This document shows, in pieces, positions 38,907-45,415 of a stretch of 64,000 bases of DNA (within the stretch, counting starts at the first letter, position 1; each line of letters begins with the position of its first letter). Where the stretch lies: NCBI RefSeq assembly GCF_022869165.1, contig NZ_CP094929.1, positions 2,914,001 through 2,978,000 on the forward strand, written 5' to 3'. The DNA comes from Sphaerochaeta associata. Its GTDB lineage: Bacteria; Spirochaetota; Spirochaetia; Sphaerochaetales; Sphaerochaetaceae. The notes beneath the pieces were generated by a model that was given only the letters and a program-made list of their open reading frames with translations, made no database searches and was not told the origin of the DNA. Both the position numbers and the translations under genes were made by a program.

Positions 38907-38933
38907 ATGACAAGACTGTCCGTCTGTGTATGA
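38907..38933 (+). CDS. Possible leader peptide MTRLSVCV
   Basis: A nine-codon frame (ATG to TGA) has AGGAG 9 nt upstream. A 7-bp inverted repeat, GACAAGA/TCTTGTC (38909-38915 and 38935-38941), spans it. This could be an attenuator-type leader for xdh or chance. A better promoter lies just downstream, which weakens the case. Confidence 0.2.
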   Translation: MTRLSVCV

Positions 38934-38952
38934 ATCTTGTCCAAGTTTTTTC

Positions 38953-38980
38953 TTGTATTTGTTGCAGATTGTTGTATTAT
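38953..38980 (+). promoter_or_regulatory. Candidate promoter of the xdh operon
   Basis: TTGTAT (38953-38958) and TATTAT (38975-38980) are separated by 16 bp. Transcription from here would give a leader of about 115 nt before the xdh start at 39103. I see nothing else definable in the rest of the 38672-39102 gap. Confidence 0.4.
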
Positions 38981-39102
38981 TGACCTACATAGAAGAAAGG
39001 TCACCCTTTCTGGTTACCTACGCTTACCGCCATTACCTTGGTGGATTGTTCAATTCCAGGAAGAGTAGACACACGTTGGTTCCTTATTGGAAGGAGGACT
39101 TC

Positions 39103-41391
39103 ATGGATATAATCGGGACTTCCCTGAAACGAGTCGATGCATTCGACAAAGTAACAGGTAAAGCTAAATACACAGACGATCTGGTTTCAGGGCATGCCCT
39201 GATTGCGAAAGTGCTGCACAGCACCATTGCAAACGGCTGGGTCAAGGAGTTCGACCTCAGTGAAGCGTGGAAGGTCAAAGGCGTAGTGGACATTGTCACC
39301 TGCTTTGACGTACCCGATATCCAGTTCCCCACGGCCGGACACCCTTGGTCCACCGATCCAAAGCATCAGGACATTGCAGATAGAAAGCTGCTCAATGCCA
39401 GGGTCCGTTGTTATGCAGACGACATCGCCGCCGTCATTGCAGAGGATGAGATCGCAGCCGAAGAGGCAGTGAGAAAAATAAAGGTCACCTATGAGGAATA
39501 CACCCCCATCCTTACCGTCGAAGATGCAATGAAGGAAGGGGCCACTGTCATTCACGAAGAACGGCCGAACAACATCGTGGTCAAGTCTCAATACGAGATC
39601 GGCAACTTCGAGGAAGCGATCAAGGAAGAAGGCTTGATCAAGGTGGTCGGAGACTACGAGACCCCGGTGGTCAGTCACTGCCATATCGAGAGTGCAAACT
39701 CCTTTGCCTACATGGAAAGCGACAAGATTGTCGTAGTAAGCTCCACCCAGATTCCCCACATTGTGCGCCGCGTCTGCTCGCAGGCTCTCGGGGTGGGATT
39801 CGGCAAGATCAGGATCATCAAACCGTACATCGGCGGCGGCTTCGGCAACAAGCAGGATGCCCTGACAGAACCTTTGAACGCCTTCCTTACCACAAGAGTG
39901 GGTGGACGGCCGGTAAAGCTTGCCTATACACGGGAAGAGACGTTCGCTTCGACCCGCACACGGCATGCAATGCAGTTCCATATCGAAAGTTATATCCGTA
40001 AGGACGGCAGCTTTGCAGCCCGTACCATCAAAGCCTACTCCAACCAGGGCGGCTATGCATCGCATGCCCACGCCCTCGTCGCCAATGCAGTGAACGGCTT
40101 TCGCATGATGTACCCGGTAGGAGCCATCAAGAGCGAAGCCTATACGGTCTACACCAACCTGCCCACCGCAGGGGCGATGCGAGCATACGGCATTCCACAA
40201 ATCGGCTTCGCGTTGGAAGCCCATGTGGACGACATTGCAAAACAGACCGGGCTCGACCCCATCAGGCTTCGCAAGCAGAATATGATGAAGCTCGGCTATG
40301 TCGACCCGATCACCACGATCACCTGTCACTCTACCGGGCTTGATGAGTGCATCGAACGCGGAGAGAAGTATCTCGATTACACCAAGAAGCGGCTGGCGTA
40401 TGCAAACCAGAGCGGGCCGATCAGAAAGGGTGTGGGTATGGCGATCTTCTGCTACAAGACCGGCGTCTACCCCATCAGCCTGGAGACTTCGGCCTGCCGC
40501 ATGATCCTCAACCAGGACGGTTCGCTGCAGATGCAGATCGGTGCCACCGAGATCGGACAGGGTGCCGATACCGTCTTTGCCATGATGGCGGCCCAGACCA
40601 TCGGGGTAACGGTTGACAAGGTGCATGTAGTCAGCAAGCAGGACACCGATGTAACTCCCTACGACACCGGCGCCTATGCCTCAAGGCAGACCTATGTCTC
40701 GGGCATGGCGGTGAAGAAAACCGCCGAGTCCTTCAGAAAAAAGATTCTCGACTTCGCCGGCTTCATGCTCAAGAAAGATCCGTGGGATTTGGACATCAAG
40801 GACAACAACATCGTACACGTCAACAAGAGTGAGAAGCTGCTCAGCGTAGCCGATGTGGCCATCGAATCCTGCTACAGTCTGACGAACTCCACCCATATTG
40901 CAGCCGAGGAATCCCACCACTGCACCGACAACACCTACTCCTTCGGCGTTTGTTTTACGGAGGTCGAGGTCGACATCCCCATGTGTCAGGTCAAGATCCT
41001 GGACATCATCAATGTCCACGATTCAGGCAGGATCATCAACATGCAAACCGCCCGCGGACAGGTTCACGGAGGTATGAGCATGGGCCTTGGGTACGGACTC
41101 TACGAGTACTTGAAGTTCGACCCGAAGACCGGCCGGATGCTCAACGACAACCTTTTGGACTACAAGCTGATGACGGCCATCGATACCCCGGAGCTGCATG
41201 CAGACTTCGTTGAGACCGATGACCCCACCGGTCCGTATGGAAACAAGTCACTGGGAGAGCCACCCACCATTCCGGTTGCTCCTGCAATCCGAAATGCGGT
41301 GCTCAATGCCACCGGGGTTGCCATCAATGCAGCTCCGTTGCACCCCCAGAGAATGTTCGAAGCCTTCACCGAGGCGGGCCTGATCAAATAA
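39103..41391 (+). CDS. xdhA: Xanthine dehydrogenase-type molybdenum subunit
   Basis: A 762-residue molybdopterin-binding subunit of the xanthine oxidase family. It has the N-terminal TGKAKYTDDL entry motif, GGGFGNKQD and GAMRAYGIPQ cofactor loops, QIGATEIGQGADTVF and the C-terminal GNKSLGEPP, whose Glu is the catalytic base. It would hydroxylate a purine or aromatic heterocycle; AAGGAGG lies 5 nt before the ATG, correcting a frame that is open to 38926. The FAD and iron-sulfur subunits follow. Together with the adenine deaminases this suggests a purine-degradation role; nicotinate- or aldehyde-type substrates remain possible. Confidence 0.9.
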   Translation: MDIIGTSLKRVDAFDKVTGKAKYTDDLVSGHALIAKVLHSTIANGWVKEFDLSEAWKVKGVVDIVTCFDVPDIQFPTAGHPWSTDPKHQDIADRKLLNARVRCYADDIAAVIAEDEIAAEEAVRKIKVTYEEYTPILTVEDAMKEGATVIHEERPNNIVVKSQYEIGNFEEAIKEEGLIKVVGDYETPVVSHCHIESANSFAYMESDKIVVVSSTQIPHIVRRVCSQALGVGFGKIRIIKPYIGGGFGNKQDALTEPLNAFLTTRVGGRPVKLAYTREETFASTRTRHAMQFHIESYIRKDGSFAARTIKAYSNQGGYASHAHALVANAVNGFRMMYPVGAIKSEAYTVYTNLPTAGAMRAYGIPQIGFALEAHVDDIAKQTGLDPIRLRKQNMMKLGYVDPITTITCHSTGLDECIERGEKYLDYTKKRLAYANQSGPIRKGVGMAIFCYKTGVYPISLETSACRMILNQDGSLQMQIGATEIGQGADTVFAMMAAQTIGVTVDKVHVVSKQDTDVTPYDTGAYASRQTYVSGMAVKKTAESFRKKILDFAGFMLKKDPWDLDIKDNNIVHVNKSEKLLSVADVAIESCYSLTNSTHIAAEESHHCTDNTYSFGVCFTEVEVDIPMCQVKILDIINVHDSGRIINMQTARGQVHGGMSMGLGYGLYEYLKFDPKTGRMLNDNLLDYKLMTAIDTPELHADFVETDDPTGPYGNKSLGEPPTIPVAPAIRNAVLNATGVAINAAPLHPQRMFEAFTEAGLIK

Positions 41392-41403
41392 AGGAAAGAG
41401 CGT

Positions 41404-42291
41404 ATGTATAATTTCAACAATCTCTATGAACCAACCTCAGTAGAAGAAGCCTTGCGCTTGAAGAAAGAACATCCCCAAGCGTTGTTCCTCGCCGGTGGAA
41501 GCGACATTCTGATAAAAATCCGAGAGGGCAAGCTCGCCGGTTGCGACCTGATTAATATCTACAATCTGGAGGAACTGAGGGGAATCTGCCTCGAGGACGA
41601 CGGTTCGATTCTCATCAGGCCGCTCACCAGTTTCACCGATGTATCGATGCATCCGGTCATCAGACAGTACGTACCGGTCCTCGGAGAGGCGGTTGACCAA
41701 ATCGGCGGACCGCAGGTGAGAAACATCGGGACCATCGGAGGCAACATCTGCAACGGAGTCACCAGTGCCGACAGCGCCACCACACTGAAGGCCTACGATG
41801 CCACTCTGGAGATTGCAAGCCTCGACGGTATTCGTCTCCTGCCCTACACCGAGTTCAATCTCGGTCCCGGCAAGGTGGACTTGAGAGAGGGAGAACTCTT
41901 GTGCGGCATCCGCATCGCCAAAGAGAGCTATGAGAACACCAGCGGCCACTACATCAAGTATGCAATGCGCAAGGCGATGGATATCGCCACCCTGGGCTGT
42001 TCGGTCAATGTGAGACTTACGAGCGACAAGAAGCATATCGATCGGCTTCGCATCGCCTTCGGCGTTGCAGCCCCGACTCCGATTCGATCCACCACCGTAG
42101 AGTCAAAGGTACAAGGTCATGAGCTGAACGAGCAACTGCTCGATATCGTCTCTGAAGGAGCCTTATCTGATGTGAGTCCAAGAACCAGCTGGCGTGCTTC
42201 CAAAGAGTTCCGCCTGCAGCTGGTCAAGGAAATGGCGAGAAGAACAACGAAGGCTGCAGTTGAGAAAGCAGGAGGCACCATCAATGGCTAA
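41404..42291 (+). CDS. xdhB: Xanthine dehydrogenase-type FAD subunit
   Basis: A 295-residue FAD-binding subunit (CO-dehydrogenase flavoprotein family). Signatures are FLAGGSDILIKIREGK (first FAD loop) and GTIGGNICNGVTSADSATTL (second FAD loop), with a C-terminal CODH-flavoprotein domain. It passes electrons from the iron-sulfur centres to NAD or another acceptor. It lies 12 bp after the molybdenum subunit and overlaps the iron-sulfur subunit by 8 bp. Confidence 0.93.
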   Translation: MYNFNNLYEPTSVEEALRLKKEHPQALFLAGGSDILIKIREGKLAGCDLINIYNLEELRGICLEDDGSILIRPLTSFTDVSMHPVIRQYVPVLGEAVDQIGGPQVRNIGTIGGNICNGVTSADSATTLKAYDATLEIASLDGIRLLPYTEFNLGPGKVDLREGELLCGIRIAKESYENTSGHYIKYAMRKAMDIATLGCSVNVRLTSDKKHIDRLRIAFGVAAPTPIRSTTVESKVQGHELNEQLLDIVSEGALSDVSPRTSWRASKEFRLQLVKEMARRTTKAAVEKAGGTING

Positions 42292-42772
42292 CAAAGACGT
42301 ACACTGTATTGTCAACGGAAAAGAGCGTGTATTCTCAGTGGATGTCCGCTCGTCCTTATCCGATATGCTCAGAGGGAAAGCCGGCTTGGACAGCATCAAG
42401 CACGGCTGTGATGTAGGAGAATGCGGTGCATGTACCATCCTGATCGACGGCAAGCCGTTCAACAGCTGCATCTATATGGCGATTTGGGCTGAGGGAAAAA
42501 CCATCCTGACTCTTGAAGGCCTGAGCAATACCAAGGGAGAGATCAGCGACATCCAACAAGCCTTCATCGATGAAGGTGCCGTCCAGTGCGGTTTCTGCAC
42601 CCCCGGTTTCATCATGGCCTCCATTCCCATCATCGAGAAGGACGAGCCTTCCTCCCGCGAAGAGATCCGCCGCCAGATTTCAGGCAATCTCTGCCGATGC
42701 ACCGGCTATGAACACATTGTCGATGCAATCGAAAAAACGCAGAGGAAGCGGATTGAACAGAAGAAAGGCTGA
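42284..42772 (+). CDS. xdhC: Xanthine dehydrogenase-type [2Fe-2S] subunit
   Basis: A 162-residue protein with two iron-sulfur domains. The plant-ferredoxin-like site is CDVGECGACTILIDGKPFNSC and the second, helical site is CGFCTPGFIM plus CRCTGYEHI. It shuttles electrons from the molybdenum centre to FAD. The ATG at 42284 has GGAGG 8 nt upstream; the frame continues upstream into xdhB but without a ribosome site. A terminator follows directly. Confidence 0.94.
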   Translation: MANKDVHCIVNGKERVFSVDVRSSLSDMLRGKAGLDSIKHGCDVGECGACTILIDGKPFNSCIYMAIWAEGKTILTLEGLSNTKGEISDIQQAFIDEGAVQCGFCTPGFIMASIPIIEKDEPSSREEIRRQISGNLCRCTGYEHIVDAIEKTQRKRIEQKKG

Positions 42773-42840: not shown

Positions 42841-43074
42841 TTAGATTTCTTTGACTTGAGACTTCTTCACCTCATAGCCCAAGGTGGTGACAGCCTTTTC
42901 TATGGCTTCTGCAGTGATGGCCGAATCATCAAAGTCAAGCTTGACCTTGCTGGAGTTGAACAGCACCTTCACACTCTCCTTCTGTACACCTTGCAAGGCT
43001 TTGGTTGCATTCTCAATCTTTTGCATGCAGGACGGACAGGTCAAGGATTCCAGTTGCATGGTAAGTTTCTTCAT
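42841..43074 (-). CDS. Heavy-metal-associated (HMA) chaperone-like protein
   Basis: A 77-residue ferredoxin-fold metal chaperone with metal-binding Cys13 and Cys16 in LESLTCPSCMQKIENA. The usual Met before the first Cys is replaced by Leu-Thr and the spacing CxxC is kept. It would carry Cu(I), Zn(II) or a similar ion to the P-type ATPase encoded just upstream. AAAGGAG lies 8 nt before ATG 43074. Its own FNR-type box lies 62 bp upstream, immediately after the ATPase stop codon. Confidence 0.88.
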   Translation of the reverse strand: MKKLTMQLESLTCPSCMQKIENATKALQGVQKESVKVLFNSSKVKLDFDDSAITAEAIEKAVTTLGYEVKKSQVKEI

Positions 43075-43107
43075 GGGTATCGCTCCTTTCATCGTTGTGG
43101 TATGGGT

Positions 43108-43149
43108 AGCATACCAAGGATCTTTTCGGTCGTAATTGATTCAAATCAA
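43108..43149 (-). promoter_or_regulatory. FNR-type box and -10 element of the HMA gene
   Basis: TTGATTCAAATCAA (43136-43149) is a perfect match to the FNR consensus TTGAT-N4-ATCAA. On the minus strand a TATGCT -10 element (43113-43108) starts exactly 22 nt downstream, placing the box centre near -41, the class II activation position. Confidence 0.75.
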
Positions 43150-43152
43150 CTT

Positions 43153-45012
43153 TCACCGTTCTTTCCGTAATTGGAAGCGCAGCAGCCGCATTCCGTTGAG
43201 AATCACCACGAGAATGCTTGCCTCGTGCACCAGCATGCCGATGGACATATTCATCCACTCACTGAAAAACACGCTTGCCAGGAGGACCAACACCACGCCC
43301 ACTGCAATTGCAATATTCTGACGCATGTTGTTCGCGGTCGCCTTTGCCAATCCCAGGGCATGAGGAAGGCGGCTGAAGTCCGAATTCATCAGCACCACAT
43401 CCGAGGTCTCGATGGCTACATCGGTACCGCTGCCCATGGCGATTCCGATATGGGCCAAGGCGAGCGAGGGGCTGTCGTTCACCCCGTCTCCCACAAAGGC
43501 AACCGTTCTCCCTTCTGCCTGCAGCTTCTTGATATAGGAAGCCTTGTCCTGGGGCAGCATGTGTCCATGGGCCTCCGTCAAACCCAACTCCTTTGACACC
43601 AAGTCCACCGTCCCTTGGTTGTCCCCCGAGAGTACGACCAAGTGCTTCACGCCCAGCCTCTTCAGCTTGCGCAGATGAACCTTCACACCCTCTCGTATTT
43701 GGTCGCGGATTCCCATAAGGATCTGGAGCTCACCGTCCACGGCTGTCAACACAAGTGAGTTTCCACTCGCTTCAAATCGTGCAATATCCCTTAGCGCCTT
43801 CTCAGAGAAGACTACCTTCTCCTGCTCCATCAAACCGACATTACCGACGGCAACCCGATGGCCGTCCACCTCGGCAACGATGCCTCCTCCCGCCACGACA
43901 TTGGTTCTCTGCACGGTATAGGTGTCGAGTACACCCAGATGCTGTACGATTGCTTTAGCCAGGGGATGGTCTGATTCTCGTTCCACGCTGGACAGATACC
44001 CCAGGGTTTGTTGGATATCGGAGACATAGTATTGGGTGTCTGCAACAGTAGGATTGCCCACTGTAAGCGTTCCTGTCTTATCAAAAACGATGGTGTCGAC
44101 CCTGCTGAAATCGTGGATGACCTCGCTGCCCTTGAGCAGCACCCCATGGCGTGCACCGTTGCCGATGCCTGCGACATTGGAGACGGGGACGCCTATTACC
44201 AAGGCGCCGGGACATCCCAGTACAAGAATCGTGATGGCAAGTTCAATATTGCGGGAGACCAACCAGACAAGCAGGGAGAGAACCAGCACTGCAGGTGTGT
44301 AATACTTTGAAAACCGGTCGATGAACCGCTCGGCCTCCGACTTTGAGTCCTGGGCTTCCTCGACCAACTCGATGATCCTTCCAAAGGTGGTATCCTCTCC
44401 GACCCTGTCGGCAACAATCTGCATCGTCCCATTTTCCAAAATGGTGCCGGCAAACACCTGGGAGCCCTTCTTTTTACCTACAGGCACAGCCTCACCGGTG
44501 ATGCTCGCCTCATTGATGTACCCTTCACCGCTGATGACGGTGCCGTCCACGGGAACTTTCGCCCCGGTTTTAACGAGCAGGGTATCGCCGACATCGACAT
44601 CATCAACATCCACCTCTTCAAATTCACCGCTCTCGACCTGCTTCAAGGCACTCTCAGGTGCCATTTGTGTCAATTCCTTGATGGCAGAGCGGGTCTTCTG
44701 CAACGTACGCTGCTCAAGATACGCTCCGAACAGAAACAGGAACGTGACAATTGCCGACTCTTCGAAGTTCTTGATGAAGAAGGCACCTATGACTGCCAGG
44801 GTGACCAGGACATCGATGCTGACGACCTTGACCTTCAGTGCCTGATAGGCTTGGATGGCAATCGGAGCTACTCCAAGCACCGATGCAAGAATGAGCGACC
44901 ACATGGCCGCCTGCTCCTGGTGAAACACCAGCTCGCTGGTGAAGCCGATAATGATCAGAGCCGCGCTGACAACAGTGATATGGTTCTTTTTACCTAAGAT
45001 ATATTTCTGCAT
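43153..45012 (-). CDS. P1B-type metal ATPase with CPG motif
   Basis: A 619-residue metal-translocating P-type ATPase without an N-terminal metal-binding domain. It shows the actuator TGEAVP (172-177), membrane metal site Cys267-Pro-Gly269 in VLGCPGALVIG, phosphorylation site Asp311 in DKTGTLT, His-Pro in SDHPLAKA and the hinge GDGVNDSPSLA. Most P1B pumps have CPC, CPH or SPC; CPG is unusual, so the ion is uncertain. It would export metal across the inner membrane. It lies 17 bp after a short hemerythrin-like gene and is followed by an HMA chaperone. Confidence 0.92.
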   Translation of the reverse strand: MQKYILGKKNHITVVSAALIIIGFTSELVFHQEQAAMWSLILASVLGVAPIAIQAYQALKVKVVSIDVLVTLAVIGAFFIKNFEESAIVTFLFLFGAYLEQRTLQKTRSAIKELTQMAPESALKQVESGEFEEVDVDDVDVGDTLLVKTGAKVPVDGTVISGEGYINEASITGEAVPVGKKKGSQVFAGTILENGTMQIVADRVGEDTTFGRIIELVEEAQDSKSEAERFIDRFSKYYTPAVLVLSLLVWLVSRNIELAITILVLGCPGALVIGVPVSNVAGIGNGARHGVLLKGSEVIHDFSRVDTIVFDKTGTLTVGNPTVADTQYYVSDIQQTLGYLSSVERESDHPLAKAIVQHLGVLDTYTVQRTNVVAGGGIVAEVDGHRVAVGNVGLMEQEKVVFSEKALRDIARFEASGNSLVLTAVDGELQILMGIRDQIREGVKVHLRKLKRLGVKHLVVLSGDNQGTVDLVSKELGLTEAHGHMLPQDKASYIKKLQAEGRTVAFVGDGVNDSPSLALAHIGIAMGSGTDVAIETSDVVLMNSDFSRLPHALGLAKATANNMRQNIAIAVGVVLVLLASVFFSEWMNMSIGMLVHEASILVVILNGMRLLRFQLRKER

Positions 45013-45029
45013 CCTTTGCTCCTTCCAAC

Positions 45030-45338
45030 CTACTGCGTTTGGTGATAGGCTTGGTCGAGTTCACCCAACATGTGATAGACAGCTTCGTAGGTTTCACACA
45101 CGCCCTCAGGAATACGGTACGTGTTTGTAATGGTTCTCAGCTGAGCGAATTCTTGTTGGAGTGCAGGAAGCTTTGCACCTGCCTGCTCGATCTTGTGGAC
45201 CATTGCCTCGAAGGTCCGGCGAACTTCATGGAATTCGGGGTGGTTGGAGCCGTGAACCCGGTCGACGATGGGGACGTATTGTTTCAAAACCTTCAGATAT
45301 TGCTTCTTGGAAGCGGCGAACGTTGTAGTATGTAACAT
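45030..45338 (-). CDS. Short hemerythrin-like protein related to RIC/YtfE
   Basis: A 102-residue helical protein. VDRVHGSNHPEFHEVRRTFE resembles the His-Gly-x-x-His-Pro-Glu segment of the RIC/YtfE di-iron domain, and ITNTYRIPEGVCETYEAVYHMLGELDQAYHQ resembles the following helix. It ends before the final metal-ligand helix of that family, so it has fewer ligands than a complete di-iron site. A metal-binding or redox-sensing role is inferred from this and from its operon with a metal ATPase. AAGGAG precedes the ATG by 8 nt. Confidence 0.65.
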   Translation of the reverse strand: MLHTTTFAASKKQYLKVLKQYVPIVDRVHGSNHPEFHEVRRTFEAMVHKIEQAGAKLPALQQEFAQLRTITNTYRIPEGVCETYEAVYHMLGELDQAYHQTQ

Positions 45339-45373
45339 GGTGGCTTCTCCTTATTTCTCTTGGTTACAGACCA

Positions 45374-45415
45374 AGTGTAGCCGAGATGAAGCTAAGGATA
45401 ATTGATTAGAATCAA
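45374..45415 (-). promoter_or_regulatory. FNR-type box and -10 element of the hemerythrin/ATPase operon
   Basis: TTGATTAGAATCAA (45402-45415) is a perfect FNR consensus, with a TACACT -10 element (45379-45374) starting 22 nt downstream on the minus strand. Spacing and the flanking GAAAG and TTA bases match the box before the HMA gene. Confidence 0.75.

Follow-up and report, generated by a model that had tools for sequence, protein, structure and literature searches.

Conserved FNR-type boxes at two metal-transport promoters of Sphaerochaeta associata and a candidate iron-sulfur regulator

Two promoters of a metal-transport cluster in Sphaerochaeta associata, one serving a CopZ-like HMA metallochaperone gene and the other a gene for a fragment of the RIC (ScdA/YtfE) family together with a P1B-ATPase gene, carry perfect FNR-type boxes in the same promoter geometry, and we consider it likely, judging from comparative sequence analysis, that a four-cysteine CRP/FNR protein (L035) activates both of them within an NO/O2-linked regulon. 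New here are the probable regulator and the NO/O2 genes that accompany it in relatives, as well as the identity of the RIC fragment and the unusual motifs of the pump; FNR- and HcpR-like regulons are of an already known kind.

Results

Promoter geometry

The window (the whole 64,000-nt stretch of DNA that was analysed) comes from a 3.55-Mb single-contig genome, and MAGs named Spirochaetales or Spirochaetia supplied the loci of its nearest relatives. The features of the cluster are as follows:

45402..45415, minus strand: FNR-type box 2 of the mini-RIC/ATPase promoter (TTGATTCTAATCAA on the minus strand), centre at -41.5
45374..45379, minus strand: -10 element TACACT of the mini-RIC/ATPase promoter, 22 nt from box 2
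45030..45338, minus strand: mini-RIC, a fragment of the RIC (ScdA/YtfE) family, 102 aa, 17 nt upstream of the ATPase gene
43153..45012, minus strand: heavy-metal P1B-type ATPase, 619 aa, no N-terminal metal-binding domain, CPG in M4 and HEASI in M6
43136..43149, minus strand: FNR-type box 1 of the HMA promoter (TTGATTTGAATCAA on the minus strand), centre at -41.5 from the predicted start
43108..43113, minus strand: -10 element TATGCT of the HMA promoter, with TGG just before it, 22 nt from box 1
42841..43074, minus strand: CopZ-like HMA metallochaperone gene, CPSC motif

Read along the minus strand, the box 2 promoter is followed by the 102-aa gene, the P1B-ATPase gene, the box 1 promoter and the HMA gene, with box 1 lying 3 nt beyond the ATPase stop codon. 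The coding-strand sequences of the boxes are gaaagTTGATTTGAATCAAtta (43136-43149) and gaaagTTGATTCTAATCAAtta (45402-45415), and both are flanked by gaaag and tta. A preliminary description of this DNA had reported two FNR-type boxes with these shared flanks, each exactly 22 nt from its -10 element, and we recovered all of this; the distance from box to start codon, which it gave as about 62-64 nt, is 61 nt for the HMA gene (ATG at 43074, after AGGAG) and 63 nt for mini-RIC (start at 45338). When the -10 element is counted as -12 to -7, the box lies at -48 to -35 with its centre at -41.5, which is the class II position. A scan of the window found no promoter with a good -35 (sigma-70-like) in the region, as would be expected if the two box promoters are activator-dependent.

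An inverted repeat (TGGTATG-GGTAG-CATACCA, 43098-43116) overlaps the -10 element of the HMA promoter; it is similar in four relatives (G222, G008, G012, G217) and broken in two (G227/G228), and might serve as a further operator or form a hairpin where the transcript starts.

Conservation of box and spacing

Matches to TTGATN4ATCAA with one mismatch were set aside as evidence, as their frequency in the window (4, with 3.7 expected) is at chance level. Perfect copies of TTGATTNNAATCAA, for which the preliminary description had proposed a genome scan, number only 3 in the whole 3.55-Mb genome. Across 26 genomes of the genus there are 40 such copies, half of which (20/40) are the two cluster promoters in ten genomes; the remaining copies that were inspected lie mostly within coding sequence. 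In these cluster promoters TTGATT, AATCAA and the spacing are constant; the variable positions are the two bases at the centre and most of those in the flanks. When the best -10 hexamer was scored with its position left free from 8 to 33 nt downstream of the box, it fell at exactly 22 nt in 19 of the 20 non-redundant cluster promoters. Promoters with this spacing include those of a Clostridial MAG (TTGATTTGTATCAA), of G006 and G224 (TTGACN4GTCAA) and of one Tepidanaerobacter-type genome (GTGACTTAAATCAT), and by inspection two further Tepidanaerobacter-type genomes have the same 22-nt spacing, so that the position of the box is kept across phyla while its sequence changes. This conservation of box and spacing strongly supports the earlier proposal that the HMA gene and the ATPase unit are under class II control of the FNR type.

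Besides the two cluster boxes the genome has one more perfect copy, which precedes an aspA-like gene; it was rejected as a member of the regulon for want of a -10 element at 22 nt. In two species (L032:3000 = genome C1:2894599; L103:1465) an aspA/fumarase-like gene has the palindrome CCTTGATTTCAATCAAGG, or a close form of it, upstream, with no -10 element at that distance.

A candidate regulator

Five Crp/Fnr proteins were read in the window's genome, two of which have the four Fe-S cysteines of FNR:

G000:C1:2535933-2536658: L035, four-cysteine CRP/FNR protein, recognition helix K-E-T-V-N-R
L033 578-1321 (genome C1:1304977-1305717): L033, four-cysteine FNR, recognition helix R-E-T-L-S-R

L035 combines a cNMP-binding fold and a Crp-type HTH (PF00027 + PF13545), and the Fnr profile aligns over nearly its full length with a score far below the cut-off. 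Its cysteines match C20, C23, C29 and C122 of E. coli FNR, with an N-terminal C-x2-C-x6-C and a Cys at the C122 column. Among the five proteins it alone has E181 and R185 without R180. In the residue-base code of the CRP/FNR family, position 3 of the site is G where residue 180 is Arg and T where it is another residue (PMC1274295), and T rather than G is therefore predicted in the box of L035.

A box of this kind adjoins the gene in relatives: after the stop codon of the L035-type gene, TTGATTTGAATCAT or a near variant is found in 16 of 17 genomes, TTGATTTGAATCAT itself being the HMA box with one letter changed. These boxes agree with the HMA box in 12-13 of 14 letters in 15 genomes and in 10 of 14 in G012, and they mostly lie 22 nt from TACACT or TATGCT. 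The genes behind them encode RIC (ScdA_N/DUF542), a flavodiiron protein that resembles the anaerobic NO reductase flavorubredoxin, or both. In the window's own genome the box beside L035 has been lost (best match 9/14). Every one of the ten genomes with a TTGAT-box cluster has the L035 type, against 8 of the other 16 (Fisher p = 0.0095, a guide only, since it ignores kinship and the incompleteness of MAGs). Also in favour of L035, box and helix differ together in G006 and G224, where ATPase or HMA promoters carry TTGACN4GTCAA at the same spacing. G006 has the cluster without an L035 type, its HMA box being TTGACGTAGGTCAA, and encodes a Q-E-T-L-S-R protein; in G224 a Q-E-T-L-S-R CRP/FNR protein adjoins the ATPase relative with the TTGAC boxes. 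L035 thus answers the search for an FNR-type regulator that the preliminary description had proposed: an FNR homologue with four cysteines and a matching, FNR-like recognition helix exists, and the same box stands beside its gene in relatives. We regard it as the best candidate for control of both boxes, and probably the right one on these comparisons.

By eye, no full-length intact RIC was seen beside the L035-type gene in six cluster-bearing genomes (G000, G012, G217, G007, G222, G008; loci L158-L163); some of these six have what look like degraded RIC remains, and four other cluster genomes keep RIC. A 116-aa ORF (L035:1523-1873), with no Pfam or NCBIfam match, lies just upstream of L035, overlaps its start and was also seen in several relatives.

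Pump and RIC fragment

The ATPase scores 552 bits against TIGR01525 (cut-off 346) and has its DKTGT phosphorylation site at 311. P1B-4 ATPases such as sCoaT likewise have no classical N-terminal metal-binding domain and an M6 that begins with HE, but they have SPC in M4 and HEGxT in M6 (PMC8880997), where this protein has CPG and HEASI. The CPG of M4 is kept in all homologues read, and from its sequence the pump is a P1B-type ATPase with unusual metal motifs. Beside the cluster, at 38926-42772 on the plus strand, lies a three-gene molybdopterin hydroxylase (xanthine dehydrogenase-type) set.

The 102-aa protein, which had been labelled a hemerythrin, is instead a RIC fragment without most of the iron ligands. 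Only two blocks align with RIC (ScdA 91-125 and 175-210), and the NCBIfam RIC profile gives a score of 45 against a cut-off of 205. The published di-iron ligands of RIC are H84, H129, E133, H160, H204 and E208 (PMC9268430); relative to this set, mini-RIC is missing the stretch with H-x3-E and the next His, as well as the last Glu. The ScdA_N domain with its Cys pair is absent from the 102 residues. An AlphaFold model has a pLDDT of 91, and its best PDB matches are RIC structures at weak E values (0.003-0.008). Eight homologues show no variation at H29, H33 and E35, which makes it likely that mini-RIC is functional, though not as a standard di-iron protein. A search of 198 genomes of the phylum matched only the window's genome, the sample having been drawn evenly and the genus relatives that have mini-RIC lying outside it.

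Alternative explanations

That the two palindromes arose by chance, or serve another purpose as a hairpin or other operator, is very improbable: short AT-rich palindromes arise readily, and the perfect copy upstream of the aspA-like gene shows that one can occur without a suitably spaced -10 element, but box and spacing are kept in ten genomes despite varying flanks, and the spacing is retained in other lineages with an altered box sequence. L033, with its complete four-cysteine set, was our first choice of regulator and could control the two promoters alone or together with L035. Its gene is divergent from a pyruvate formate-lyase-like gene (pflB, identified by eye from the sequence), and TGTGATTGAAATCACA or TGTGATTCAAATCACA lies between the two in 19 of 21 orthologues; this conserved box has the inner core TGATTNNAATCA in common with the cluster boxes, and two Clostridial MAGs that carry TTGATTTGTATCAA at the right place yielded regulators of the R180 type only, one of them a relative of L033 at 45% identity, with no L035 type, which counts against the assignment to L035. 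However, the box of L033 itself is G-type, in agreement with the residue-base code for its Arg180, whereas the cluster boxes have T at position 3, and L033 was demoted on this account. Moreover, the surroundings of its gene showed no T-type box, and the occurrence of L033 does not follow the cluster (9 of 10 cluster genomes, 12 of 16 others, p = 0.62). Scoring of the -10 element at 22 nt on the pflB side of the L033 box gave no clear signal. On balance, control by L033 appears unlikely.

Somewhat less probable still is that the boxes serve a CRP/FNR protein sensing a metal or a metabolite instead of O2 or NO, which would place the pump under metabolic or metal control. In Tepidanaerobacter-type genomes the boxes of the same cluster are of the TGTGA type, with the spacing unchanged, and the CRP-like proteins found in these genomes (R-E-T-V-T-R helices) are without N-terminal cysteines; in the window's genus, however, the TTGAT-type box adjoins a four-cysteine regulator and RIC/flavodiiron genes.

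Discussion

The geometry of the two boxes suggests that a CRP/FNR-family protein, most likely L035, activates from them in the class II manner. This protein would carry an Fe-S cluster on its four cysteines that senses O2 or NO, and by binding both boxes it would switch on the HMA gene and, separately, the mini-RIC/P1B-ATPase unit. In relatives the regulon appears to hold a full-length RIC and a flavodiiron NO/O2 reductase as well, and these neighbours of the L035-type gene suggest a response to NO or O2; the pump thus probably belongs to an NO/O2-stress regulon. The ATPase would export metal, with the HMA protein as its carrier, and the purpose is most likely to remove metal that NO or O2 sets free by damaging iron-sulfur and thiolate sites, alongside repair and detoxification. 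Mini-RIC may, speculatively, act with the pump and the HMA carrier as a partner. The preliminary description had placed a sensor of oxygen, NO or redox over a metal pump; its FNR-type control is supported, and the putative signal (O2, NO or redox) and the direction of the response are inferred from the cysteines of the regulator and the neighbouring genes in relatives; loss of the cluster may turn the genes on or off.

A more specific and rather doubtful reading is a dedicated NO/O2-stress metal-export module, in which an Fe-S CRP/FNR regulator would co-activate iron-centre repair, NO/O2 reduction and a new P1B subgroup (CPG/HEASI), whose RIC-derived partner, its di-iron site lost, would pass on or gate the metal that damaged iron-sulfur or thiolate sites release. 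Our proposal would link the NO/O2 defence of an anaerobe with its export of metal, by way of a named regulator and a testable box; the layout of the promoters persists from phylum to phylum, with differences in the box sequence and in the helix of the regulator. The pumps, too, stand out as a conserved subgroup whose metal-site motifs are unusual and whose partner derives from a repair protein, so that the cargo and the role of the partner can be tested directly. In the open-access literature we found no close match to an FNR-controlled pump that has a RIC fragment beside it, nor to a P1B motif of the CPG kind, and a possible Thermotogales precedent was not confirmed.

Several known systems share parts of this arrangement. 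E. coli FNR and its class II promoters have the same TTGATN4ATCAA box at -41.5, the four cysteine positions and an E-x-x-[S/N]-R helix, but FNR has V-E-x-x-S-R and C-x2-C-x5-C where L035 has K-E-x-x-N-R and C-x2-C-x6-C, and its targets are respiration genes, whereas here they would be the metal pump, RIC and flavodiiron genes. In HcpR regulons, anaerobe CRP/FNR proteins control NO-defence genes, NO is believed to destroy the Fe-S clusters that some of these proteins carry, and hemerythrin-like genes are often members (PMC1274295, PMC5701242); in Desulfovibrio HcpR2 it has been proposed that NO damages the Fe-S cluster and that DNA binding is then lost (PMC5701242). The targets here differ (RIC/flavodiiron genes and the P1B-ATPase cluster), as does the box, TTGAT in contrast to the HcpR2 motif GTAACN4GTTAC of the group with Treponema denticola (PMC1274295, PMC5701242). 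HcpR controls hcp, often from an adjacent gene; RIC and flavodiiron genes are the neighbours seen for the L035 type. DNR is an NO-responsive FNR-family activator with the box TTGATN4ATCAA and a RIC-family target (PMC1274295, PMC9268430), DnrD controlling ric in Pseudomonas stutzeri, and RIC genes are induced by nitrosative or oxidative stress (PMC9268430). DNR belongs to another lineage and way of life, and here the protein has four cysteines and a metal pump as predicted target. Finally, P1B-5 ATPases that have a hemerythrin-like domain fused at the C-terminus, as in Acidothermus and in Nia of Sinorhizobium meliloti, also join a hemerythrin-family module to a P1B pump (PMC9388753), whereas in our cluster a separate, ligand-poor RIC fragment is encoded beside a pump with CPG in M4 and HEASI in M6.
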